DNA from: Clostridiaceae bacterium BRH_c20a
GTDB lineage: Bacteria > Bacillota > Peptococcia > Peptococcales > BICA1-8
Direction: 5' to 3'
Assembly: GCA_000961765.1 (NCBI GenBank)
Contig: LADT01000061.1
Location: forward strand, 1 to 45,148
DNA length: 45,148 nt
Both the position numbers and the translations under genes were made by a program. Below, one piece after another: positions 1,529 through 44,345 of this stretch. Numbering within the stretch: the first letter of the stretch is position 1; each line of letters opens with the position of its first letter. The notes beneath the pieces are model-generated. The model worked only from the letters and a program-made list of their open reading frames with translations. It did not search any database and was not told where the DNA came from.

Positions 1529-1560
1529 AAAAACGGGCATCGTCAACATCGCCCGTTTTT
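1529..1560. terminator. bidirectional intrinsic terminator
   Basis: The stem AAAAACGGGC / GCCCGTTTTT encloses a 12-base loop and has A and T runs on both sides, so it can end transcription from both convergent genes. The kinase stop codon (1559-1561) overlaps its right edge. Confidence 0.85.
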
Positions 1561-2998
1561 AACACATTTCTATCCAAAATAAAGTTCCTTCATTTTCTTT
1601 GCTCTCAACCCCATATTTAAATCCATGGGCTTCTAGGATATTTTTTACTATAGCCAAGCCTAATCCGGTACTGTTGTTGTATCTTTTCCGGGATTTGTCA
1701 ACTTTGTAGAATCTATCCCAAATATATGGCAAATCCTTTTGGGGAATGCCTATACCGTAGTCAACTACTTCAACCCTTGCGTTTTGATACACCTTAATAA
1801 TAACCCTTTTATTTTTTGGGGAATAGCTTATGGCATTGTTTATAATATTAAAAAATACTTGATAAAGCTTTTCCTGATCGCCAAAAGCCTTAATAGCTTC
1901 ATTTTCTACATCTAAAATAAGTTCAATGTTTCTTCTGGTGGCCAAAAACTGCAGTTTTTCCAGGGTGCTTCTCAAAAGATCCACCAGCAGGAAATCTTTT
2001 GAGTTCAGTTTTATACTATCTGGCTCTATTTGGGATAAGTAGAGAATATCTTCCACAATATGATTTAGTCTTCGGGACTCATCGATAATTACCTGGAGAT
2101 GCTGGTCCCGGGATTTTTTATCCTCCCCTTCTAAATCTCTAATAAGCTCAGCATAAGCCTGAATAAGGCTAATGGGTGTTTTGAGTTCATGGGTGGTATT
2201 AGCGATGAAATCCTTTCGAAAATTATCTAATTTCTGAAGTTCTTTAGGTAAATTATTAATTATTCTGCCCAAGGTACCAATCTCATCATTACTATAAATG
2301 TTAACAGAGGTATCAAAATCCCCCTTGGCTATTTTTTCTGCCGCCGATGAGATATTGAGGATTGGCTTTGTTAGATGCCGAGAGAGTAGGATTGAAATTA
2401 TAGTACCTAATAGAAGAGAAAAAAGGCTAATAATTGTTAATTGTTTTCTTAGAATAAATATGGATTCTTCAATTGGCGCTAAAGGTGATTCCAGAATTAA
2501 AGTCCCTAAGACTGTGTTGCTATTTTTTATGGGAATTCCAACAATTATTGAGGGCCTTGGAAAATTTCCACTTGTCACAGCAAAAACCTTTTCTTCATTT
2601 ATTTTTGTATTTATTTCTGTATCCTTATTTAACCAATTCATAAAGCGGGTTCTCATACTAATTTCTATTCGGGGTGATTGCCTAGATTCAAAATTATTTA
2701 AAAAGACATAGTCAATCAAATCTTTCTTATTATCAATTAGAATAATTGACCCGTGAATCGAATCAGAAAAGGAGAAATGTTCACTTCTAATAGCCGAAGC
2801 AATTTCTAAGGTGTTGGTTTCAGCAAGGACAGATGCAATTTTTATGCCTTCATTAATTAATGTATTTTCCCTCTCACTAATATAAAAGCTTTTCAAAAAA
2901 AATATTTGAAAAAACCAGGCCGTTAACAGGATGGTTATGACAAGAATCATCATCCCCAGCCAAAGCTTTCCTTTTATCCCACTACCAATAAACCTCAA
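1559..2998 (-). CDS. sensor histidine kinase (two-component system)
   Basis: A 479-residue membrane sensor kinase that would autophosphorylate on His and pass the phosphate to the regulator encoded just upstream. A first membrane helix lies at about 13-35, an extracytoplasmic sensor at about 36-185, and a second helix at about 187-206. HAMP follows (about 207-255), then HisKA with H270 in ANTTHELKTP, and a HATPase domain with N-box FFNIINNAISYSP, G1 box DYGIGIP and G2 box STGLGLAIVK. It begins at TTG one base after the regulator's stop codon, so the two genes are translationally coupled. The signal is unknown; the neighbouring efflux operon suggests an envelope stress or toxic compound. Confidence 0.93.
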   Translation of the reverse strand: MRFIGSGIKGKLWLGMMILVITILLTAWFFQIFFLKSFYISERENTLINEGIKIASVLAETNTLEIASAIRSEHFSFSDSIHGSIILIDNKKDLIDYVFLNNFESRQSPRIEISMRTRFMNWLNKDTEINTKINEEKVFAVTSGNFPRPSIIVGIPIKNSNTVLGTLILESPLAPIEESIFILRKQLTIISLFSLLLGTIISILLSRHLTKPILNISSAAEKIAKGDFDTSVNIYSNDEIGTLGRIINNLPKELQKLDNFRKDFIANTTHELKTPISLIQAYAELIRDLEGEDKKSRDQHLQVIIDESRRLNHIVEDILYLSQIEPDSIKLNSKDFLLVDLLRSTLEKLQFLATRRNIELILDVENEAIKAFGDQEKLYQVFFNIINNAISYSPKNKRVIIKVYQNARVEVVDYGIGIPQKDLPYIWDRFYKVDKSRKRYNNSTGLGLAIVKNILEAHGFKYGVESKENEGTLFWIEMC

Positions 2999-2999
2999 G

Positions 3000-3680
3000 C
3001 TAATCTCCTGCCTTTAGCATATATCCTGAACCCCAGACAGTATGCAGGTAATTTTTATAAAGTCCTAATTTTGACCGTAATTGTTTTATATGGGTATCCA
3101 CTGTTCGTAAATCCCCTAAAAAATCATAGTCCCAAACTAAGTTTAATAACCGTTCCCGGGAATAGACCTTATTTGGATTACGGACCAAAAAGTAGAGCAG
3201 ATCGTATTCCTTGGGAGTCAGGAGAATTTCTGTGTTATTAATAAAGACTTGTTTGGAATCAGGATTTATCTTTAAATTTTTAATAATTAGGTAATCGGTG
3301 TTTAATGTATTGTTCTGACTTCTTCTAATAAGAGCATTAACTCTGGCTACTAATTCTTTAGGGCTAAAAGGTTTTGTAACATAATCATCTGCACCTAACT
3401 CAAAACCTAGAAGCTTATCAAACTCCTCAGATCTAGCAGTCAAAAAAATTATGGGAGTTTGACAGCTTTTCCGAATTTCCTTACAGATTGTCCAGCCGTC
3501 TGATTCTGGCAGCATAATATCTAGCATGATTAGGTCAAAGGTTTTTTTAATAATAATATCCAGAGCCTTTTTCCCGTCAACTGCTTCCTCCACTAGGTAG
3601 CCTTCGTTTTCCAAGTACTTTTTTAGAACATTACGCATCTTATCTTCATCTTCTACAAGAAGGATTGTTAAGGGGGACAT
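3000..3680 (-). CDS. OmpR/PhoB-family response regulator
   Basis: A 226-residue regulator with an N-terminal receiver (about 4-116) whose acidic pocket (VEDED), phospho-acceptor D54 in LIMLDIMLP and conserved lysine (TKPFSP) are intact. A C-terminal winged-helix domain (about 128-224) follows, with the typical LTPKEYDLLYFL and TVDTHIKQLRSKLG segments. ATG start with GAGGTGA eight bases upstream. It is the first gene of a two-gene operon with the kinase and is divergent from the efflux operon. Two ATCAC-N6-ATCAC direct repeats in the shared gap are plausible binding sites. Confidence 0.94.
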   Translation of the reverse strand: MSPLTILLVEDEDKMRNVLKKYLENEGYLVEEAVDGKKALDIIIKKTFDLIMLDIMLPESDGWTICKEIRKSCQTPIIFLTARSEEFDKLLGFELGADDYVTKPFSPKELVARVNALIRRSQNNTLNTDYLIIKNLKINPDSKQVFINNTEILLTPKEYDLLYFLVRNPNKVYSRERLLNLVWDYDFLGDLRTVDTHIKQLRSKLGLYKNYLHTVWGSGYMLKAGD

Positions 3681-3947: not shown

Positions 3948-4496
3948 ATGAAATTAAAAGTATTATCTATTTTGGTACTCATCTGTATTATTGCATTGAC
4001 AGCAGGATGCAGCAGTAAAGAAAACGTTAATGGTCAAAAAAATACTGCAAGTTCAGAAGCTGAAGTATTTACAGTTCCCGAGCGGGTACCTGATTTAATG
4101 GGGCGAGTAGTAGAGATAATAGGCAACGAGGTCACTATTTATAGGATAGAGGGTAGTTTTACTCAGCGGCAATCCTCTCAAGGAACTCCTGGACAAAGCC
4201 CTGAGAATAGAATACCACAGATAACAGTCTCTGAAGAAAAGGAAGCAATCATTATCCCGGTGGGTACCCCTATTGTTACTATACAGAGAGGTAGTACCCA
4301 AGTAAATTCCGTGGGCTTAACAGAAATTAAAAAAGATCAAATCCTCAGGGTTTGGAAGAATGGAGATATAGTGGAATTTGTACAATTAATGGCAGTTGCC
4401 GGAGGCAGAGGAGGAACCGGGGGCGGGCAAAACCCAGGTCAAGGAGGCTTTCCGGGGGGAGGGGGCTTCCCAGGTATGGGGGGCGGACCCCGCTGA
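3948..4496 (+). CDS. putative lipoprotein with glycine-rich tail, first gene of efflux operon
   Basis: I do not recognise the family. The 182-residue product starts with a lipoprotein signal peptide and lipobox LTAGC (C21), so it should be anchored on the outer face of the cytoplasmic membrane. A segment at about 46-150 looks beta-rich (GRVVEIIGNEVTIYRIEG, then IIIPVGTPIVTI), and the last 35 residues are almost only Gly, Pro and Phe (GGFPGGGGFPGMGG). The ATG at 3948 is preferred over an in-frame GTG at 3939 because AAAGGTG sits six bases before it. Its stop overlaps the ATPase start by one base (TGATG), so it belongs to the transporter operon and may be an accessory or sensing component. Confidence 0.75.
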   Translation: MKLKVLSILVLICIIALTAGCSSKENVNGQKNTASSEAEVFTVPERVPDLMGRVVEIIGNEVTIYRIEGSFTQRQSSQGTPGQSPENRIPQITVSEEKEAIIIPVGTPIVTIQRGSTQVNSVGLTEIKKDQILRVWKNGDIVEFVQLMAVAGGRGGTGGGQNPGQGGFPGGGGFPGMGGGPR

Positions 4497-5185
4497 TGAA
4501 TAACAATGGCCGTTGTATTATCGATGCTAGAAATATCGTAAAAATCTACCAGACCCCTTATGAAGAATTAAAGGTATTGGATGATATCAGTATTAAAGTC
4601 ATGGAAAATGATTTTACTGCAATTTTGGGCCCTTCAGGTTCTGGAAAATCAACGTTAATGAATGTATTGGGCTGTCTGGATCTGCCGACAATGGGAGAGT
4701 ACTTTTTAGATGGTGTAGACATCTTAAAAGCGAAGGATGACCAACTGGCCGATATTAGGAATAACAAGATAGGCTTCGTTTTTCAAAAGTTTAATCTGCT
4801 GCCAAGGCTTAGTGCTCTACAAAATGTAATGCTTCCTTTACTATATCGGGGAGTAGAGGAAGATGAGGCTAGGGAAATTGCTAAAGAAAAGTTAAGTTTA
4901 TTGGGCTTAGGTGATAGATTAACCCATCGTCCTAATGAACTTTCAGGTGGACAGCAGCAAAGAGTCTCTATTGCCCGAGCCATAGTAGGCAATCCGCCTT
5001 TACTATTAGCTGATGAGCCTACAGGTAACTTAGACAGTAAGTCCAGCAAGGATGCTATCGAAATTTTAAAAGAACTTAATAAAGAAGGAAATACCATAAT
5101 TGTCATAACCCATGATAATGAAGTTGCAGAGCAAACGAAGAAGGTTGTTTTTATCCGAGACGGCAGACTTAGCCAGGAAGGTTAA
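4496..5185 (+). CDS. ABC transporter ATP-binding protein, MacB/LolD type
   Basis: A 229-residue ATPase that would power the permease encoded at 6496. Walker A GPSGSGKS (about 45-52), Q-loop FVFQKFNLLPRLSA, signature LSGGQQQR and Walker B LLLADEPTGNLD are intact, and the D-loop LD follows. The Q-loop context and the TGNLDS sequence are typical of the MacB/LolD/FtsE group. The open frame runs further upstream, but the start at 4496 overlaps the lipoprotein stop and gives the usual family length. A separate ATPase and permease is the usual Gram-positive split of the fused MacB of Proteobacteria. Confidence 0.93.
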   Translation: MNNNGRCIIDARNIVKIYQTPYEELKVLDDISIKVMENDFTAILGPSGSGKSTLMNVLGCLDLPTMGEYFLDGVDILKAKDDQLADIRNNKIGFVFQKFNLLPRLSALQNVMLPLLYRGVEEDEAREIAKEKLSLLGLGDRLTHRPNELSGGQQQRVSIARAIVGNPPLLLADEPTGNLDSKSSKDAIEILKELNKEGNTIIVITHDNEVAEQTKKVVFIRDGRLSQEG

Positions 5186-5250
5186 TGTCAGTAGAGAGGT
5201 TGTTATCGCGAGCGGATCGTGGCGATCCCCTTTTTGGGAATTTCCTTTAC

Positions 5251-5276
5251 CTCAACCTCAACCTCAACCTCAACCT
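5251..5276. repeat. CTCAAC tandem hexamers
   Basis: About four copies of CTCAAC lie in the 136-base gap between the ATPase and fusion-protein genes, followed by CTTAACCT. They belong to the AACCTT/AACCTC hexamer family dispersed through the window. Confidence 0.8.
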
Positions 5277-5321
5277 TGGCCTTTAATCTTAACCTAATTC
5301 AAGCTAGGAGGGGACAGACAT

Positions 5322-6491
5322 TTGAAAAGGTTCTTTGCAAAAAAGAAATTACTTATATTATTACTGATAGCTATCCTGGCTATTGGGACTGGATTTTGGT
5401 TTAAAAACAATAATGGCAGTAAAATTGTGGAAATCCAATATGAAAAATCCTCCATAACAAGGGGGGACATTGTTGTTGGACTTGACTCCGATGGGACTAT
5501 TGAGTTCCCAAAGGTTAATCTGCGCTTTGGAGTGAAAGGGGCTATTGCAGAAATTTTGGTAGACAGAGGTGATCAGGTAGAAAAAGGTGATATTATTGCT
5601 AAACTTGATGACCGGGATTATCAAGATCAGTATCAGTTAGCTTTGGTCAGGTTAAAAGATGCCGAAGAACAAGAGTTGACAAATCTTTTGGATGATGAGC
5701 TTAAAATAGGAAAGTTAAAGTCCGAGCTAGAAAATACCAAAACTACATATCAGGAAATGGTGGAAATACCTGATGCTTACTCGGCCAACGATATTAAATT
5801 AAAAAAGCAGGAGCTGGATAATAAAGAAATAGAATACCAAAATGCTTTAAAAAAGCATGATATTTTGGTCACCAATTTTAATAATAAAGGTACCCAGTTG
5901 AACCAAAATGAGCTGACTGCAAAAATGGCGGAAGAAGATTTGGAGGATACTATCCTATACGCACCAGTTGCTGGAACTATTCTCGATTTAACCAAGAAAG
6001 CGGGTGAGAGCGTTTCTGATGAACAGGATTTAGTGGTGCTGCATGAAAATAATGATGTTAAAGCCATAACAAAAGTAATTGAGTACGATATCGGAGGCAT
6101 TAAGCTTGGTCAAAAGGTCAATGTCACCGTAGAGGCTTTACCGGATCAGACCTTTGTGGGTGAAGTAAGCAATATCGATTCACTACCCACTTCAGATAAT
6201 TCAGGCTTGGTTAGCTACAATGTGGAAATTAATATCATAAATCCCGATGAGGGAATTAAGGATGGTATGACAAGTACGTTGACCTTTATATTAAAGGAAG
6301 TCCAGGATTGTTTAATTGTACCCTATAAAGCGGTAAAGATCGTTAATAGAAAACAAATGGTAACAGTTATTGATGAAAAGGGTGAAGAAGTTGAAAGGGA
6401 AATTAAGACAGGCTTTACCGATGGCACTAGTGTGGAAGTACTCGAGGGGCTAGAACAAAATGAAACCGTTGTCTATGCCAAAAGCAGGTGA
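5322..6491 (+). CDS. periplasmic adaptor / membrane fusion protein, MacA/HlyD type
   Basis: A 389-residue protein with one N-terminal membrane helix (about 8-26) and the adaptor fold. The first half of a lipoyl domain (about 65-95, GDQVEKGDIIAKLDD) is followed by a long charged coiled-coil hairpin (about 96-200). The second lipoyl half comes next (about 205-235, ILYAPVAGTILDL), then beta-barrel and membrane-proximal domains. It would bridge the permease and the TolC-like protein of the same operon. TTG start with AGGAGGGG eight bases upstream. The permease begins four bases after its stop codon. Confidence 0.9.
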   Translation: MKRFFAKKKLLILLLIAILAIGTGFWFKNNNGSKIVEIQYEKSSITRGDIVVGLDSDGTIEFPKVNLRFGVKGAIAEILVDRGDQVEKGDIIAKLDDRDYQDQYQLALVRLKDAEEQELTNLLDDELKIGKLKSELENTKTTYQEMVEIPDAYSANDIKLKKQELDNKEIEYQNALKKHDILVTNFNNKGTQLNQNELTAKMAEEDLEDTILYAPVAGTILDLTKKAGESVSDEQDLVVLHENNDVKAITKVIEYDIGGIKLGQKVNVTVEALPDQTFVGEVSNIDSLPTSDNSGLVSYNVEINIINPDEGIKDGMTSTLTFILKEVQDCLIVPYKAVKIVNRKQMVTVIDEKGEEVEREIKTGFTDGTSVEVLEGLEQNETVVYAKSR

Positions 6492-6495
6492 TTAG

Positions 6496-7680
6496 ATGAA
6501 ACTAAAACAGCTTTTAAAAATAGTATTAATCAATATCTATCACAACAAAATGAGGACCTTTCTGACTACCCTTGGAGTTATTGTTGGAACTGCAACTATT
6601 TTCTTAGTTGTTGCCATTGGTCGGGGGGGAGAGGCCCAGGTTAATGAACAATACTCCCGCCTCAATGTGGGGACAATAATGGTTATGCCTGCCCAAAGGG
6701 GCCGGGTATTGGATCCCCTTACCAAAGAGGATGCTGAGTTATTTCAAGCAAGCCAAAATATTAAAATGGCATTTCCCATATTAAATGGTTCCGGCTCTAT
6801 GAAATACGGCAACTATTCTAGTAATGCTTCCTATTATGGCATTTTACCTGCTTATCTGGAAGCTAATAATTTAACCATAAATCAGGGTCGCTTCTTAGAT
6901 GATACCGATGAAAGCAAGCGAGAAAGGGTTGCCGTCATCGGAGCTGGACTAGCCGAACTTCTAACCGATGGCAATCCCACGGAAATCTTAGATAAGACCC
7001 TTGATTTAAACAGACGTAAGTTTGTAGTAGTAGGTATTTTAAATCGAATGGGGGATTCGGGTTCCCCCCAGGGTTTTGATGATACAGCCTTTATTCCCTA
7101 TTCGGCTGCAGAGCGGTATTTATTAGGTACTAGAGCCAACCCCACCATAAATGCTATCGCAGAGGTCAATACGGTTCAGGCTGCTATCCAGGATATTACT
7201 ACTATTCTTAATGCAAATCACCTTCGGGGTGGGTCGGAGCAGTTTAGAATACTGGATGCTGGAAGTAGGTTAGTAGCAGCCCAGGAAACCGCCAGAACCA
7301 TGTCCTTGCTTTTATTATCGGTAGCTGTGGTTGTTTTAATTGTCAGCGGGATAGGTATTATGAATGTTATGTTCGTAACTGTTAAAGAAAGGACCAAGGA
7401 AATAGGGACTCTAAAGGCTATTGGGGCAAAAAAACGGGAGATTTTAGGACAATTTTTAATAGAGGCTGTTGTCATAAGCCTGGCGGGGGGTATTCTGGGG
7501 GTAATGATTGGCGGCGGTATGGTGCCGCTCTTGAAATATTTTGAAATCTTAGCTATCCCTTCTCTAAGTGGAGTATTAATAGGTTTGTTGTTTTCCGTAA
7601 CAACAGGGGTGTTCTTCGGGTTCTACCCAGCCTGGCAGGCCGCAGATTTAAATCCCATCGATGCTTTGCGATATGAATAG
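6496..7680 (+). CDS. ABC transporter permease, MacB/FtsX family
   Basis: A 394-residue permease with the four-helix MacB plan: one N-terminal helix (about 20-42), a large extracytoplasmic MacB_PCD domain (about 45-265) and three C-terminal helices in an FtsX domain. The FtsX domain carries the typical coupling-helix sequence VKERTKEIGTLKAIGAKKR. Together with the ATPase at 4496 and the adaptor at 5322 it forms a MacAB-type exporter; substrates of such pumps include macrolides, peptides and lipids, and the substrate here is unknown. Confidence 0.93.
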   Translation: MKLKQLLKIVLINIYHNKMRTFLTTLGVIVGTATIFLVVAIGRGGEAQVNEQYSRLNVGTIMVMPAQRGRVLDPLTKEDAELFQASQNIKMAFPILNGSGSMKYGNYSSNASYYGILPAYLEANNLTINQGRFLDDTDESKRERVAVIGAGLAELLTDGNPTEILDKTLDLNRRKFVVVGILNRMGDSGSPQGFDDTAFIPYSAAERYLLGTRANPTINAIAEVNTVQAAIQDITTILNANHLRGGSEQFRILDAGSRLVAAQETARTMSLLLLSVAVVVLIVSGIGIMNVMFVTVKERTKEIGTLKAIGAKKREILGQFLIEAVVISLAGGILGVMIGGGMVPLLKYFEILAIPSLSGVLIGLLFSVTTGVFFGFYPAWQAADLNPIDALRYE

Positions 7681-7690
7681 GGGTTAAATA

Positions 7691-7757
7691 ATGTAGAATG
7701 TAGAATGTAGAATGGAAAATGTAGAATTGAAAGTTGAAAATTAAAAGTTGGGAATTG
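7691..7757. repeat. TAGAATG/GAAAGTTG heptamer-like words before the TolC-like gene
   Basis: Tandem TAGAATG words followed by related GTTGAAAATT words fill the gap between the permease and the TolC-like gene. Similar words, on the opposite strand, recur at 41675-41730. The low complexity argues against the longer N-terminus that the reading frame would allow from 7734. Confidence 0.75.
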
Positions 7758-7781
7758 ATGGACCTTGATGGAGTGAAAGGA

Positions 7782-8993
7782 ATGATAGTTTTGTTGAAAT
7801 TGCAGAGGTTATTGACTTTTTTCTTGAGTTTTATACTGGTATTTTTAATGCTGGCAAGCGCGGCTTTTTCCGCTGAAGAAGTACTTACTTTAGAGGAGGC
7901 TAAAGAGATGGCCCGAGGTAGCAGAGGCCTTATGCAGTCAGAGCTTGATGCGGAAAAGGCAAAATTTGAATATTACCAGGCTCAAAAAAATTATGATGAT
8001 GTGAAAACACCGTCTTATTATAACCTTTTGCCCTATTATTTTTATCTTAATGAACAAAAAGATCAGGGAATAAATGTTGATGAACAGTTGAAAAATGTAG
8101 AAAAACAAATCAGCGATGCTAAAGGAAAGCTTGATGCAGAGGCTGATAAAGCCGCCTCTGCGAGAGACACCATGGAAAGCAGGGAAATCGCCTATGAAGA
8201 TAGCAAAGCCTCCAAGGAAAAAAGTGAGAAACAGCTAGATTATCAAGTGGAGCAAATGTATACATCAATTTTAGTCCAGGAAGATAAAATGATATCAATG
8301 CATAAAGAACTAGACTATAAATACAATTTGTTAAATATCGAAAGAAAAAAGCTGAAGCTAGGCAACAGTACTCAGGAAAAAGTTGATAAGCTGGCTGTAG
8401 ATACCTCTAATTTTAATAAATCTATTGTCGAGGCCAACAATTCTTTAAAAAACTTAAAAGGTAAGCTTAATGACCTCTTAGGTCGAGATTATGATGTTGG
8501 GCTTAAATTAGTCCCTTTTTCTGTTAATGAAGTTGTTGTCATACCCGTGTACAATAATCTCTTACCGCTAGCTACCCAAAACTATGACAAACTATCTCAA
8601 CTGGAAAAGAATATTGAGGAAAGAAAAAAAGACTTAGATGATGATGCTGTTAAAGATACAGCCTATCAGTCTGATCTGATTAAAATTGAAATAAAAAAAC
8701 TGGAGCTTCAGATTGAAGATGAGAAAATTAAATTAAAAGAGACTATCAATAACCTCATTACAGATATGAATATAAAGCAGAAAAATTATCAACTAGCCAA
8801 AATAGATTGGGAAAATACCCAGAAAAACTATGAACGATCTCAGAAGAGATTTGGACTTGGACTAATTTCCAAGCTGGAATTACTTCAAAGTGAGCTTGAT
8901 TACTTAGCAGGCAAGAATAAATACATGTCTATTGGCTATGATTTTTCCCTTGCCCAAAATAATCTAGAATTAGTTAAGCAAGGAATATTATAA
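7782..8993 (+). CDS. TolC-like coiled-coil outer component of efflux operon
   Basis: The product has a signal peptide (LLTFFLSFILVFLMLASAAFS) with likely cleavage before AEEVLTLEEA, and the mature protein is almost wholly charged coiled coil, as in the outer membrane efflux protein family. The C-terminal part (KRFGLGLISKLELLQSELD) strongly resembles the second TolC repeat motif. The start is uncertain: ATG 7782 touches the AAAGGA sequence, while TTG 7791 has better spacing; both retain the signal peptide. It ends the MacAB operon, so a tripartite pump is implied. A TolC partner in a spore-former with no other outer-membrane gene in view is notable. Confidence 0.8.
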   Translation: MIVLLKLQRLLTFFLSFILVFLMLASAAFSAEEVLTLEEAKEMARGSRGLMQSELDAEKAKFEYYQAQKNYDDVKTPSYYNLLPYYFYLNEQKDQGINVDEQLKNVEKQISDAKGKLDAEADKAASARDTMESREIAYEDSKASKEKSEKQLDYQVEQMYTSILVQEDKMISMHKELDYKYNLLNIERKKLKLGNSTQEKVDKLAVDTSNFNKSIVEANNSLKNLKGKLNDLLGRDYDVGLKLVPFSVNEVVVIPVYNNLLPLATQNYDKLSQLEKNIEERKKDLDDDAVKDTAYQSDLIKIEIKKLELQIEDEKIKLKETINNLITDMNIKQKNYQLAKIDWENTQKNYERSQKRFGLGLISKLELLQSELDYLAGKNKYMSIGYDFSLAQNNLELVKQGIL

Positions 8994-9380
8994 GACGATA
9001 GTCCATAGACGATAGACTATAATCCATCGACAATAGACGATAGACTTACATCTAGCCACCAGTCATCAGTAACTATTTTCTCACACCCCCCCCTCTATAC
9101 AATAAAGCAAAAAGCCAAAGACAAAAGTCTTTAGGCTTTTTTGCTTTCAAATGCGATATAATAAGATATCTGGATTCTATTACTTGCAACTAATCCAAAT
9201 TACTAAGCCACTAAACCCCTCCCAGCACCGATCCCCGGTCCCTGAGCACTAGTCCCTGATCCCAGATCCCTGGTCCCTGGTCCCTGTTCCCTGAGCACTG
9301 AGCACTGAGCACCTGGTGTGCTATTGATTAAAAAAAAATTGGAAGATAAAAAAAGTCGTTAATGACTTGAAACTAAATTC
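8994..9380. other. repeat-rich gap between TolC-like gene and sdh promoter
   Basis: No gene is visible. From 8996 to 9045 there are words such as ATAGTCCATAGACGATAGAC. A terminator lies at 9104-9147. From about 9217 to 9317 a GC-rich tract repeats 7-bp words of the CCCTGGT / CCCTGAG / GCACTGA type, which recur at 34235-34285, 35850-35885, 36216-36245 and 37457-37482. Confidence 0.75.
9104..9147 (+). terminator. intrinsic terminator after the efflux operon
   Basis: AAAGCAAAAAGCC pairs with GGCTTTTTTGCTTT, with the inner pair AAAGAC/GTCTTT enclosing a short loop. The T-rich right arm fits a rho-independent terminator for the efflux operon. Confidence 0.8.
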
Positions 9381-15777: not shown

Positions 15778-15846
15778 AAAGTTATTGTATAATTTACCTT
15801 GAAAATGCCACAATATTGGGGACACTCTTGACGATGATCATAGACA

Positions 15847-15878
<32 letters not shown>

Positions 15879-15937
15879 ACTATAGACTTATTCTAGCCAC
15901 TAAATTGTTGTCCCCGAGCAATAAAAGGGAGGATATC

Positions 15938-20615: not shown

Positions 20616-20933
20616 CTTAAGGGTGAACATAACGCGTCTGACACTACTCTTGGGTAAAGATATTGCGTCTGACAATACTTCTGGGTGAAAATATTGCGTC
20701 CGATACTATCCCGGGAGAAATAACACGCCTCTTACATATTTTTTGTACTTATGCCCGTGTCAGACGCAAAAGTCTGCCCCCATAGTATTGTCAGACCAAA
20801 AAGCTAGACCATTGAGTACTGTCAGACGCAATAATCTGCCTCCCAAGTAGATGTCAAACGCAAAAGTATATCCCGTAAGTAACTGTCAGACGCAATAAAA
20901 TGTCCCCAAAGCAAAAAACAAGGAGGAAAAACA
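20616..20933. repeat. convergent array of ~30-bp GCGTCTGAC units
   Basis: No gene is seen. From 20632 the core GCGTCTGACA recurs at roughly 30-base steps (about 20632, 20665 and 20696), joined by variable ACTTCTGGGTGAAAATATT-like sequence. After about 20750 the same unit continues on the other strand as TGTCAGACGCAA (about 20757, 20786, 20818, 20850 and 20886). The array thus mirrors itself around its middle and fills the whole gap from the ywlG stop to the glyA ribosome binding site. Confidence 0.85.
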
Positions 20934-22172: not shown

Positions 22173-22524
<352 letters not shown>

Positions 22525-24316: not shown

Positions 24317-24345
24317 CCCGTTAGGGTCGAGAAGGAATGATAAAT

Positions 24346-25479
24346 ATGTCCCAAGTTAAAGTAATGAGTATATTCGGAACAAGGCCGGAAGCAATAAAAA
24401 TGGCACCCTTGGTTAATGCCTTGGAAAAAGAAAAGGGTTTTAAAAGCAGTGTTGTTGTCACAGCTCAGCATAGGGAGATGCTGGACCAGGTTTTGAGTTT
24501 GTTTAATATTGAACCTCAGTATGATTTAAATATTATGCAGTCCGGTCAATCCCTCTATGATATTACCTGTCGGGCCTTAAAGGGCCTAGAAGAAATTTTA
24601 GAGCAGGAAAAGCCTCAGATGGTATTAGTCCATGGCGATACAACAACGACTTTAGCGGCCAGCTTGGCTGCCTATTATAAAAAGATACCTGTTGGCCATG
24701 TGGAGGCTGGTCTTCGCTCCGGTGATATCTATTCACCCTTTCCGGAGGAAATGAACAGAAAGCTCACCGGTGGTTTAGCTGCCTTACATTTTGCTCCTAC
24801 TCAAACAGCAAAAAATAACCTGCTACGAGAAGGGGTAAGTGAAAATAGAATCTATGTTACTGGAAATACGGTAATTGATGCCTTATTAGCTACTGTCAAA
24901 TCTGATTTTGAATTTACGGATCCTCAGTTGAAGGCTATAGATTTTAATCAGAAGCGGGTGCTGTTAGTTACTACACATCGTAGGGAAAATCTAGGCCAAC
25001 CCATGGAAAACATATTCAAAGCCTTAGCACTTTTACATGAACAGTTTGAAGATATTGAAATTATTTTCCCAGTCCATAAAAATCCTGCTGTCCGTGAGAT
25101 AGCCTATAAAATATTGACCGGTCATGAGCGTATTCACCTTATTGAGCCTCTAGACTATGAACCCTTTGCTAACCTAATGGCTCGCTCCTATCTAATCCTT
25201 ACTGATTCGGGAGGGCTGCAGGAAGAAGCTCCTGCCTTAGGAAAGCCGGTGCTGGTTCTTAGGGAAAACACAGAGCGCCCGGAAGCGGTAGTAGCGGGGA
25301 CCGTTGCCATAGTAGGAACAAAATTTGAAAGCATTTTCGAAACTTCAAAGGGCTTACTTGTAAAAAAGGAGTTATATGATAAAATGGCACAAGCAGTAAA
25401 TCCTTATGGTGATGGCAAAGCTTGTCTCAGGATTATTGATTCCTTAAAGGGCTATTCCCCCTGTCATCCTGAGCGATAG
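24346..25479 (+). CDS. wecB: UDP-N-acetylglucosamine 2-epimerase (non-hydrolysing)
   Basis: A 377-residue enzyme making UDP-ManNAc for cell-wall polymers. IFGTRPEAIKMAPL, HGDTTTTLAAS, EAGLRSGD, the FPEEMNRK segment, THRRENLG and LTDSGGLQEEAPALGKP are family signatures. GAAGGA lies nine bases before ATG 24346, which is preferred over ATG 24337. The final residues (CHPER) and the stop are encoded by a GTCATCCTGAGCGATAG repeat copy, so the natural C-terminus has probably been replaced. Confidence 0.95.
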   Translation: MSQVKVMSIFGTRPEAIKMAPLVNALEKEKGFKSSVVVTAQHREMLDQVLSLFNIEPQYDLNIMQSGQSLYDITCRALKGLEEILEQEKPQMVLVHGDTTTTLAASLAAYYKKIPVGHVEAGLRSGDIYSPFPEEMNRKLTGGLAALHFAPTQTAKNNLLREGVSENRIYVTGNTVIDALLATVKSDFEFTDPQLKAIDFNQKRVLLVTTHRRENLGQPMENIFKALALLHEQFEDIEIIFPVHKNPAVREIAYKILTGHERIHLIEPLDYEPFANLMARSYLILTDSGGLQEEAPALGKPVLVLRENTERPEAVVAGTVAIVGTKFESIFETSKGLLVKKELYDKMAQAVNPYGDGKACLRIIDSLKGYSPCHPER

Positions 25480-33729: not shown

Positions 33730-34287
33730 CGCGTCTGATGTACTTTAGGGTCACATTATTGCGTCTGACATCTACTTCTAGGTCGAAGCTTGAGCGTCTG
33801 ACAATTACTTTGAGGACAAATTATTGCGTCTGATGTACTCAAGGGTTAAAATTTTGCGTCTGACATCTACTTATGGGTCGAAGCTTGAGCGTCTGACAAT
33901 TACTTTGAGGACAAATTATTGCGTCCAATGTACTCAAGGGTTAAGATATTGCGTCTGACACTTTCCTTGGGGTAGGGGTCTTGTCATTGCGAAGGCGTTA
34001 GCCTGTGGCAATCTATGGCCTTCCGGGTGGAGATCGCCACGCTACGCTCGCGATGACATTCTATGGTCCACGCAAAGGTTTTTTATCAGACGCAAAATAT
34101 CCACCCAGTAGTACTGTCAGACGCAACAGCTAGACCCCTGAGTATTGTCAGACGCATAATATTCACCCAGCAGCATTGTCAGACGCAATAGCTAGACCTG
34201 TGAGCATTGTCAGACGAAATAGCTAGACCCCTAAGCACCGGTCACCGGTCCCTGGTCCCTGGTCCCTATTCCCTGAGCACGCTTCCC
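33730..34287. repeat. mirrored GCGTCTGAC array around a GTCATTGCGA element
   Basis: No gene is seen. Left half: GCGTCTGAC cores near 33731, 33764, 33795, 33826, 33857, 33888 and 33950, with joining words ATCTACTT and GGTCGAAGCTTGAGC repeated almost exactly about 93 bases apart. Centre: a GTCATTGCGA...TCGCGATGAC element (33983-34057). Right half: the reverse unit GTCAGACGCAA near 34087, 34124, 34147, 34178 and 34208. The block ends in CCGGTCCCTGGTCCCTGG words beside the DUF4127 stop. Confidence 0.85.
33983..34057. repeat. GTCATTGCGA...CGATGAC REP-like element
   Basis: Inverted ends GTCATTGCGA and TCGCGATGAC (imperfect), with TGTGGCAATCT and GGAGATCGCCAC inside, the same family as 9-41 and 39041-39220. 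Confidence 0.8.
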
Positions 34288-35820: not shown

Positions 35821-36292
35821 ATAATCAACCTTTCGTGCTAGTGAATATTAGAGTGACCAGTGCCCAGTGCCCGGTGACCAGTGAAAAGAATAAGGACTTT
35901 TGTCATTGTGAGATTCCCATTCAGTTATTATTTATCCTGGTTTGATAATAAATAATCGTAGGGAACGACGCCCTCGTCGTTCCTCTCCAGCGCCTATACA
36001 TCCAAATGAAAAAAATACGTAGGGGCGCGCATTGCGCGTCCGTCTTTGCACTGCCCCCTTGTCATCTTAACATAATCTAATAATTCTGCCTATTAATCAT
36101 CCGTATACGCCCATAATAAAATCGCATTAGCGATTTTATTATTAAATTACGAATAATATACCAATTTATGGTGAATACTAAACTCATAACATTAATCCAA
36201 AATTTCACTGTACTTCGATCCCTGATCACTGGTCCCTGGGCACGATTTCCCCAAAAGAATTGCCACAAATTCCAAAAAGGATGTGTTTCACC
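35821..36292. other. gene-free repeat block between DUF4127 and ywmB genes
   Basis: It contains GTGACCAGTGCCCAGTGCCC words (about 35852), a GTAGGGAACGACGCCC...TCGTTCC palindrome (35958-35983), a single GTAGGGGCGCGCATTGCGCG palindrome (36019-36042), a short AAAATCGC...GCGATTTT hairpin (about 36118-36138), and CCCTGATCACTGGTCCCTGG words (about 36219). No credible gene. Confidence 0.72.
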
Positions 36293-39593: not shown

Positions 39594-40577
39594 ATGCGTA
39601 AATACATTTTAGGGGGAATAATACTTATTTTATTAATGATAATTATTATTCCCCTCTGTACTTTGCTGCTTCTAGAATTAGATTACGGTAAGGTGGAGAT
39701 AACACCCATGGGTAGAGCAATAAATGTATTTAATTACCAGACGGGTAAGCTAATGACTATGGATTTCGAAGAATATATAGTCGGGGTAGTTGCAGCCGAA
39801 ATGCCGGCATCCTTTGAAAAGGAGGCTTTAAAAGTTCAAGCTGTAGCGGCTAGAACCTACGCATATAAACGTTTGATAGAGCCCGATGCTCTAATAAAGG
39901 AATATCATCCTCAAGCAGATGTCATAACAAGTCCTTCAATTTGTCAGGCATGGGTAAGTGATGCTGAGCTCAAAGAAAAATGGGGTCGTCTGGACTATCT
40001 AAAATTCAAAAAAAGGATAGTTGATGCCGTGGAGGAAACAAGGGGGGAGATTTTAGTTTATCAGAATAAGCTCATTGATCCAGTTTATCACGCCAGCTGT
40101 GGAGGGAAAAGAACAGAGGATTCAGGTGATGTATGGAAATACAGTTTTCCCTACTTACAGAGCGTAGAGTGTTCCGGCCATGAGGATAAACACCTGCAGG
40201 ATACAAAAACTATTCCCATCAGGAATATTGATGTGGCGTTAGCTTCTAACCTAGAAGCTGTTCCTGCCGCTAAGCTTCAGAGCAGTATCAATAATTACCT
40301 TCAAGTCGTGGAAAAGACCAAAACAGGCAGGATAAAAACCTTAAGTATAAATGGCAAAAAGCTGCCTGGCACTGAAGTCAGAACTAAACTAGGCTTAAAA
40401 TCCACCTGGTTTACCTGGCAGATTAACAATAACAATATAACCTTTACCACCCGGGGCTATGGCCACGGTGTAGGCATGTGCCAATATGGAGCAGATGGTT
40501 TTGCCAAACAAGGCAAAAAATATGACACAATACTGAAACACTACTATCAGGGTGTGGAGATTGTTAAGATAAAATAA
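39594..40577 (+). CDS. spoIID: stage II sporulation protein D (lytic transglycosylase)
   Basis: A 327-residue membrane-anchored enzyme (helix about 5-28) that degrades peptidoglycan during engulfment with SpoIIM and SpoIIP. The catalytic-glutamate segment VVAAEMPASFEKEALKVQAV, the VYHASCGGKRTED loop and the GYGHGVGMCQYGA motif are conserved. The stop TAA runs directly into GGTTAAGG repeats. Confidence 0.96.
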   Translation: MRKYILGGIILILLMIIIIPLCTLLLLELDYGKVEITPMGRAINVFNYQTGKLMTMDFEEYIVGVVAAEMPASFEKEALKVQAVAARTYAYKRLIEPDALIKEYHPQADVITSPSICQAWVSDAELKEKWGRLDYLKFKKRIVDAVEETRGEILVYQNKLIDPVYHASCGGKRTEDSGDVWKYSFPYLQSVECSGHEDKHLQDTKTIPIRNIDVALASNLEAVPAAKLQSSINNYLQVVEKTKTGRIKTLSINGKKLPGTEVRTKLGLKSTWFTWQINNNNITFTTRGYGHGVGMCQYGADGFAKQGKKYDTILKHYYQGVEIVKIK

Positions 40578-41559: not shown

Positions 41560-41907
41560 GCATGACGGCTAAAGAGTTAAGTTTTTAGGTCAGCGTGACG
41601 TCTATGGGGATAAATATAATGTCGGCGTGACGGCTAATTGGTTAAGTTTTAGGTCGGCATGTTGCCTCAAAATAAATTCTACATTCTAAATTCTACATTC
41701 TACATTTTCACTTCTCCATTCTACATTTCTCAATTAAATCCTTAGCCTTATTCCTTGATTTTACATGCCGACCTACAGGCTGGCTCATAAGCCGTCACGC
41801 CGACTCACAAATTATCCCAATAGTAAAAGAAAATTAAGGAATTAATCATTTTTTCACCCAACCTCCCATATATATTAGTTGAAAAGATGTAACGGGGAGG
41901 TCAAGTA
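41560..41907. other. gene-free repeat block between spoIIQ and spoIIID
   Basis: Contains the nested inverted element at 41621-41804 plus an extra direct half copy at 41563-41610 (CATGACGGCT, GGTCAGCGTGACG). The last 100 bases are AT-rich with the CCCATATATATTAG sequence before the spoIIID ribosome binding site. No gene is seen. Confidence 0.75.
41621..41804. mobile_element. 184-bp nested inverted-repeat element (MITE-like)
   Basis: GTCGGCGTGACGGCT (41621) and AGGTCGGCATGT (41651) are matched exactly, in reverse order and complement, by ACATGCCGACCT (41763) and AGCCGTCACGCCGAC (to 41804). The centre is filled with ATTCTAC heptamers, the complement of the TAGAATG words at 7691. No open frame is inside. 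Confidence 0.65.
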
Positions 41908-44221: not shown

Positions 44222-44345
44222 TTCGTGTCAGACGCAAGATGTTACCCAGAAGTACTGTCAGACGCAAAATGTTCACTCAGAAGTATCTCAGACGCTCAAA
44301 TTTAACCCATAAGAAATTGTCAGACGCAAAATATTAACCCCAAAG
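44222..44345. repeat. four-unit GTCAGACGCAA array before flhO
   Basis: TGTCAGACGCAA cores at about 44226, 44256 and 44318 and a variant CTCAGACGCTCAA at 44287 recur at a 30-31 base period, joined by ATGTTACCCAGAAGTAC-like sequence. Here all units have the same orientation, leading to the flhO ribosome binding site. Confidence 0.85.

Follow-up and report, generated by a model that had tools for sequence, protein, structure and literature searches.

A MacAB-type pump operon with a lipoprotein gene at its head and a TolC-fold protein, predicted to lack the outer-membrane barrel, in a Firmicute that appears monoderm by gene content

The window analysed here, the whole 45,148-nt contig LADT01000061.1 of Clostridiaceae bacterium BRH_c20a, carries at 3948-8993 five genes on one strand, encoding in order a lipoprotein, an ATP-binding cassette (ABC) ATPase, a MacA-like adaptor, a MacB-type permease, and a TolC-like protein (Table 1). 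The initial annotation had described this stretch as a MacAB operon with a lipoprotein gene first and a TolC-like gene last, and coordinates and profile matches confirm all five genes. A sequence resembling a ribosome-binding site (AAAGGTGA) precedes the lipoprotein gene, the ATPase gene starts within the lipoprotein stop codon with an overlap of one base, and a strong hairpin with a T-run lies 3' of the TolC-like gene. The divergent two-component system, a sensor histidine kinase and an OmpR-type response regulator, is probably the regulator of the pump operon. The identical five-gene order, again adjoined by a two-component system, is found in the relatives G003 (L034/L053) and G033 (L093), where G and L label sample genomes and loci, as throughout. 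Since the same five genes stand there in the same order, the operon is no chance assembly; it is conserved across three genera.

The adaptor scores 60.3 bits against HlyD_D23 (cut-off 30) and 138.4 against the RND_mfp subfamily model TIGR01730 (cut-off 94.9), and stays below the MacA equivalog of NCBIfam (90.6 against a cut-off of 342). The permease, with 117 bits to MacB_PCD and 74.1 bits to FtsX, has the domains of the MacB family (type VII ABC exporter). The NCBIfam equivalog for a fused MacB ATPase-permease (cut-off 966) is reached by neither of the two separate proteins, which score 250.1 and 175.9 bits.

The TolC-like protein falls in the OEP/TolC superfamily by its match to OEP (PF02321, 38.6 bits, cut-off 22). 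It contains two internal OEP stretches, the second just below the cut-off at 21.5 bits, and a model of the half-repeat finds two repeats, at 4e-12 and 8e-23. The AlphaFold2 model (mean predicted local distance difference test score, pLDDT, 88.3; predicted template modelling score, pTM, 0.74) is all helix save two strands of three residues each, with long helices at 117-192, 198-232, 294-358, and 364-399. A predicted structure without any TolC fold, the outcome that the initial annotation had named as contrary to its proposal, did not come about. Foldseek returned 43 matches at E of 0.001 or below, all listed as TolC-type channels, and VIA-align superposed 322 residues on TolC (9tg4_A) at Z 22.2 and a root mean square deviation of 4.8, which places the model in the TolC protomer fold; 28 further channel entries followed down to Z 12.2, and after these 29 the score fell to Z 10.0. 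In TolC, two beta-hairpins per chain, one from each repeat, build the shared outer-membrane barrel. The initial annotation had suggested looking for such a barrel in a model, and at the hairpin sites the model shows no strands: in repeat 1, helices 78-94 and 100-115 would stand where TolC has strands, and in repeat 2, a break of few residues (286-294) between helix 269-286 and helix 294-358 would replace the hairpin. The two beta-hairpins per protomer of a true outer membrane factor were found neither as strands in the model nor in the spacing of the repeats, which is 63 amino acids (aa). As modelled, the protein has lost both membrane beta-hairpins and retains the fold of the helical tunnel. 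Taking 1.5 Angstrom for each residue, its helices with 76 and 65 residues would extend over about 114 and 98 Angstrom.

Table 1. Features of the window and, where a locus label is given, of relatives
Feature	Position	Strand	Remarks
Sensor histidine kinase	1559..2998	-	HAMP, HisKA, HATPase_c; divergent from operon
OmpR-type response regulator	3000..3680	-	domain match; divergent from operon
Lipoprotein, 182 aa	3948..4496	+	lipobox LTAGC, Gly/Pro/Phe-rich tail
ABC transporter ATPase, MacB/LolD type	4496..5185	+	profile matches
MacA-like adaptor (membrane fusion protein)	5322..6491	+	one N-terminal hydrophobic segment
MacB-type permease, ATPase not fused	6496..7680	+	MacB_PCD + FtsX, four hydrophobic segments
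TolC-like protein, 403 aa	7782..8993	+	signal peptide, no lipobox; likely start ATG 7782
Hairpin then T-run, probable terminator	about 9104..9147	+	-20.7 kcal/mol, z -6.44
SpoIID	39594-40577
TolC-like protein with C-terminal Cu_amine_oxidN1-type domain	L043:5916-7538	+	Pfam-confirmed
TolC-like protein with N-terminal Cu_amine_oxidN1-type domain	L074:4217-6178	-	read from sequence
Intergenic stretches of 7-base units	7690-7758, 8993-9045, 9230-9312, 15839-15887, 22452-22506, 34247-34275, 35852-35884, 41676-41735
Intergenic arrays, units of about 31 bases	20634-20909, 33731-34237, 44226-44336		TGTCAGACGC or its reverse complement
Intergenic array, units of about 31 bases	41563-41658

The genome of the window (4.51 Mb, listed as 100% complete with 3.9% contamination) encodes Spo0A, has SpoIID within the window, and shows 19 SLH matches; the sporulation genes reported in the initial annotation are borne out. 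No BamA candidate and no LpxC match were found in it, and LptD and TamB were not searched for. Lacking BamA and LpxC and having Spo0A and SLH domains, the organism is a monoderm spore-former as judged by gene content, and on that same ground a residence of the TolC-like protein in an outer membrane was not supported. Among 80 relatives, BamA and LpxC occur in exactly the same 8, and an OEP/TolC match occurs in 59. Of the two options offered by the initial annotation, a diderm Firmicute was rejected on the missing BamA and LpxC, and the other, in which a TolC-like protein serves a different role in a cell with one membrane, gained support from a TolC fold without membrane beta-hairpins. Its premise that TolC spans an outer membrane does not apply to a protein in which these hairpins are missing, and the interpretation as a whole is partly supported. 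A match to LpxB in the window (24337-25476, 22.5 bits) lies below the cut-off, and the protein is clearly a UDP-GlcNAc 2-epimerase. Spo0A and SpoIID would also suit an action of the TolC-like protein between the two forespore membranes in sporulation. We regard this as very improbable, as the operon adjoins a two-component system and not sporulation genes; moreover, passages of PMC8809574 (Stubenrauch et al. 2022) describe spore formation as variable among monoderms with TolC-like proteins and favour the surface layer (S-layer).

The hairpin loss was followed across relatives by the repeat spacing, taken from the helical half of one repeat to that of the other; these halves were located with the half-repeat model, which was built from 30 short-form segments and no long-form one. 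The 80 relatives yielded 92 mapped OEP proteins among the matches listed, with five of those matches left out (G018:C188, G020:C214, G020:C156, G045:C150, G060:C83), as well as the OEP gene of G043:C7, to which no open reading frame (ORF) mapped. Class limits were set after the distribution had been seen, and 77 of the 92 proteins were classed; of the other 15, a single repeat was found in 12, and three are odd cases (spacings of 41 and -12, and a contig-end fragment). In BamA-less genomes, the 49 classed proteins have spacings of 60-80 with a median of 63, the value of the window protein. BamA-positive genomes hold 18 long proteins (92-180, median 103) and 10 short ones (59-64, median 63), and the step from short to long, some 40 residues, corresponds to about one hairpin. 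A spacing of at least 90 was found in none of the 51 proteins of BamA-less genomes with both repeats found, so none has the second hairpin. A second sample covered 199 genomes of the phylum, some of them also in the first, and an OEP match starting at profile position 20 or before was taken to include the hairpin part. This holds for 101 of the 150 matches listed, 99 of them in BamA-positive genomes; 37 of the 38 genomes with a hairpin-bearing match among those listed are BamA-positive. Both exceptions lie on one contig, G124:C160 (L122), an 8.8 kb piece with MacAB-TolC genes in a metagenome-assembled genome (MAG) of about 450 contigs, which is probably contamination in a Firmicute MAG because its genes look Bacteroidota-like by eye. 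Judged from these sequences, the loss of the hairpins is systematic, tracking the absence of BamA, and the observation is apparently new.

Two further explanations meet their evidence here. One sees in the organism a diderm whose outer membrane is unusual and takes up the TolC-like protein in some other way; diderm Firmicutes do exist and a TolC-fold protein in a pump operon would fit them, but the lack of BamA and LpxC, of barrel-forming strands, and of the second hairpin in all 51 measurable proteins from BamA-less relatives makes it highly unlikely. The other takes the TolC-like gene for a decaying relic without function, as barrel loss can resemble decay. This is scarcely credible for an open frame with an intact signal peptide and 59% identity to its G003 counterpart, in a conserved operon, and with a short form that is widespread and nearly constant in repeat spacing.

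We consider it reasonably likely that this monoderm spore-former uses the operon to make a regulated ABC exporter of MacAB type, in which a secreted, barrel-less TolC-fold protein forms a helical duct through the wall zone. MacB would use ATP to push a substrate from the membrane or the wall zone into the funnel of the MacA-like protein. The TolC-like protein would assemble into a ring, most likely of three chains, that docks tip-to-tip onto this funnel and extends the channel through the wall zone toward the peptidoglycan or S-layer, while the lipoprotein would serve as a membrane-anchored accessory. The barrel hairpins would be replaced by an extra helix in repeat 1 and a short turn in repeat 2; with the hairpins gone, neither the beta-barrel assembly machinery (BAM) nor an outer membrane would be needed. 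According to PMC11448272, many deep Bacillota without outer membrane genes nevertheless stain Gram-negative and probably possess thin walls that go back to diderm ancestors. A duct of roughly the length of the TolC tunnel would fit such thin walls.

The surroundings of the TolC-like genes bear both on this exporter and on a different view, in which the barrel-less protein is primarily an S-layer or wall protein, a helical spacer or assembly factor, with its place in a pump operon secondary and no continuous duct with MacA. Among 63 OEP genes of BamA-less genomes, 9 stand in runs with MacA and MacB and 6 in runs with an adaptor and a protein of the size of a resistance-nodulation-division (RND) pump; 8 have just an adaptor beside them, 5 just an RND-size protein, and for 35 neither was found nearby. 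All adaptors counted here were picked up by models derived from the adaptor of the window, and some of the contigs are short. An ORF with a Cu_amine_oxidN1-type domain lies directly upstream of 12 of the 63, and within three ORFs of 7 more, against none of 29 OEP genes of BamA-positive genomes; the model used for this count was built from 12 such neighbours, which makes it partly circular. Pfam confirms Cu_amine_oxidN1 in all ten large neighbours given, seven of them also with Ig-like Big_1 matches. Moreover, in 2 of the 92 mapped proteins a Cu_amine_oxidN1-type domain is part of the TolC-like chain itself. Barrel-less TolCs beside or fused to such domains are read as being connected with the wall or S-layer, to which the domain would bind. 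The mostly large, secreted, often Ig-like neighbours, the two fusions, and the 35 genes without a nearby pump or adaptor speak for a primary wall function. It nevertheless seems rather unlikely, as the window and 14 other BamA-less loci stand in runs with MacA and MacB or with an adaptor and an RND-size protein, and the window operon is kept in three genera.

Several points weigh against the exporter with a wall duct. The structure model was built on a four-sequence alignment, and when solved structures were searched by sequence, TolC came up at no better than E 0.45, under chance matches to coiled coils. The 35 of 63 genes without adaptor or pump found nearby mean that a duct role may not be general. 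The motif R...L......S is the TolC-docking tip of adaptors; of these three residues, the MacA-like protein of the window and its two close relatives keep only the serine and have others in place of the arginine and leucine, so docking could differ in the window's system, which speaks against an unchanged docking mode. In eight RND-type adaptors of BamA-less relatives, by comparison, the arginine and leucine are read in seven and the serine in five, much as in diderm adaptors. Counted in favour of the exporter is that SLH matches are absent in 5 of the 80 relatives, all five also without an OEP match (chance about 0.0008, a figure not corrected for completeness); against this, whether a genome has SLH and OEP matches may depend in both cases on how large and how complete it is. 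The Fisher and hypergeometric values for the second sample and for SLH/OEP ignore kinship.

Some loci in these surveys deserve a record of their own. RND-size pumps of about 1040 aa occur with an adaptor and a barrel-less TolC in BamA-less genomes at L037, L038, L039, L040, L049, L050, L067, and L123; tripartite RND pumps are usually regarded as a diderm feature. Upstream ORFs of Cu_amine_oxidN1 type, mostly large secreted proteins of Ig type, are seen at L042, L055, L057, L077, L079, L082, L084, L087, and others. Additionally, no stop separates the TolC-like frame at L061 (G023:C71) from the ABC-permease-like frame upstream of it (866 aa), which may point to a fusion or to a missing stop codon.

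The lipoprotein at the head of the operon matches no Pfam or NCBIfam family above cut-off. Among the 46 genomes of its class, it is encoded in three (the window's, G003, and G033), with a conserved core and the Gly/Pro tail in common and each time as the first gene of this operon. The search for it in other MacAB operons, proposed in the initial annotation, was thus answered positively for G003 and G033 and negatively for the other class genomes. The initial annotation had also proposed that it acts in place of or beside the TolC-like protein; the latter is more likely, because in all three genomes the same operon also ends in a TolC-like gene. Its model, from two sequences, shows an all-beta core at low confidence (mean pLDDT 65.8). 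A second structure comparison went no higher than Z 6.5, and its matches were many unrelated OB-like domains including CusF and YobA; no kinship with these is claimed. The lipoprotein is likely to be a membrane-anchored accessory. Passages of PMC13082787 describe YbjP, an Escherichia coli lipoprotein that binds TolC as a partner in the MacAB and AcrAB pumps; the analogy to YbjP is functional only, as Pfam and NCBIfam searches found no sequence relation.

In diderm Firmicutes, the short form has company. In the first sample, the 10 short proteins from BamA-positive genomes, which come from seven of the eight such genomes, are all encoded in an operon with a second TolC-like gene, and eight are direct neighbours of it; at L111 the partner is cut by the contig end. 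At 11 further BamA-positive loci, chosen mostly for listing a short match, eight of the nine short genes found adjoin a long one, and the one at L131 stands alone with MacAB. Short and long genes lie side by side at L099, L105, L107, L110, L112, L113, L115, L125, L127-L130, and L132-L134. Given these pairs, the short form is not simply a remainder after outer-membrane loss. In a tree of the helical core of 77 proteins, the short and long classes are clustered, with 6 changes against a mean of 25.5 for shuffled labels. Six of the 10 short diderm proteins form their own fork beside the monoderm short ones and four lie near fast-evolving long ones, which may reflect local duplication or an artefact; many branches are open and some long branches meet, so that the tree settles neither the number of hairpin losses nor the ancestral form. 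One operon with two TolC-like proteins is mentioned in a supporting-figure legend of PMC8809574, and no description of the pattern of tandem or barrel-less forms was found in the open-licence literature of PubMed Central. It is possible, and put forward tentatively, that the barrel-less TolC is a distinct and old subunit of Firmicute pumps, in diderms the partner of the adjacent barrel-bearing TolC, forming for instance a layer between the adaptor and the outer membrane channel or joining that channel in one ring; on outer-membrane loss the barrel TolC would have been lost and the barrel-less one kept as a peptidoglycan or S-layer duct. If so, the window operon would survive as a remnant of the passage from diderm to monoderm cells. 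Its occurrence beside barrel-bearing TolCs would make the short form a marker for how trans-envelope pumps change when the outer membrane is lost.

TolC-like proteins in pump operons of single-membrane Firmicutes without BAM are already known, as is one modelled barrel defect. Passages of PMC8809574 treat 12 such proteins, propose an S-layer location, describe a barrel "omission" in one Clostridioides difficile protein, and state for one a still present, hydrophilic barrel domain. The operons are alike in these respects; here, both hairpins are missing, the loss was measured on many proteins and tied to BamA absence, and a lipoprotein heads the operon. The wall or S-layer link seen here agrees with that proposal, which was made on other grounds. 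The same source raises the question of how TolC-like proteins assemble in monoderm Firmicutes without BAM, and the answer proposed here is that there would be no barrel to assemble. With E. coli MacAB-TolC the window system shares a MacB-type permease, a MacA-type adaptor, and a TolC-fold partner, whereas its ATPase and permease are separate genes, its adaptor tip differs, and both an outer membrane (by gene content) and a barrel are absent. YknWXYZ of Bacillus and SpMacAB of pneumococcus likewise combine a MacB-like permease with an adaptor in a monoderm, and the adaptor is thought to form a channel on the wall side (PMC5985334); in the passages concerned no TolC-like partner is described for them, whereas the window operon encodes one together with a leading lipoprotein. 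Apparently new are the hairpin loss as a rule that tracks BamA, the short-long pairs in diderms, the link to wall domains, and the version of MacAB headed by a lipoprotein. The barrel-less TolC also offers a test case for whether single-membrane bacteria construct ducts through their walls.

Apart from the operon, the window is rich in intergenic repeats (Table 1). Many intergenic stretches consist of diverged 7-base units with periods of 7, 14, and 21, the unit differing from place to place (AATGTAG, AGACGAT, TCCCTGG, and CATAGTC, for example). Arrays with units of about 31 bases are found as well, and three of them carry TGTCAGACGC or its reverse complement, so that both orientations and several arrays occur within 45 kb.

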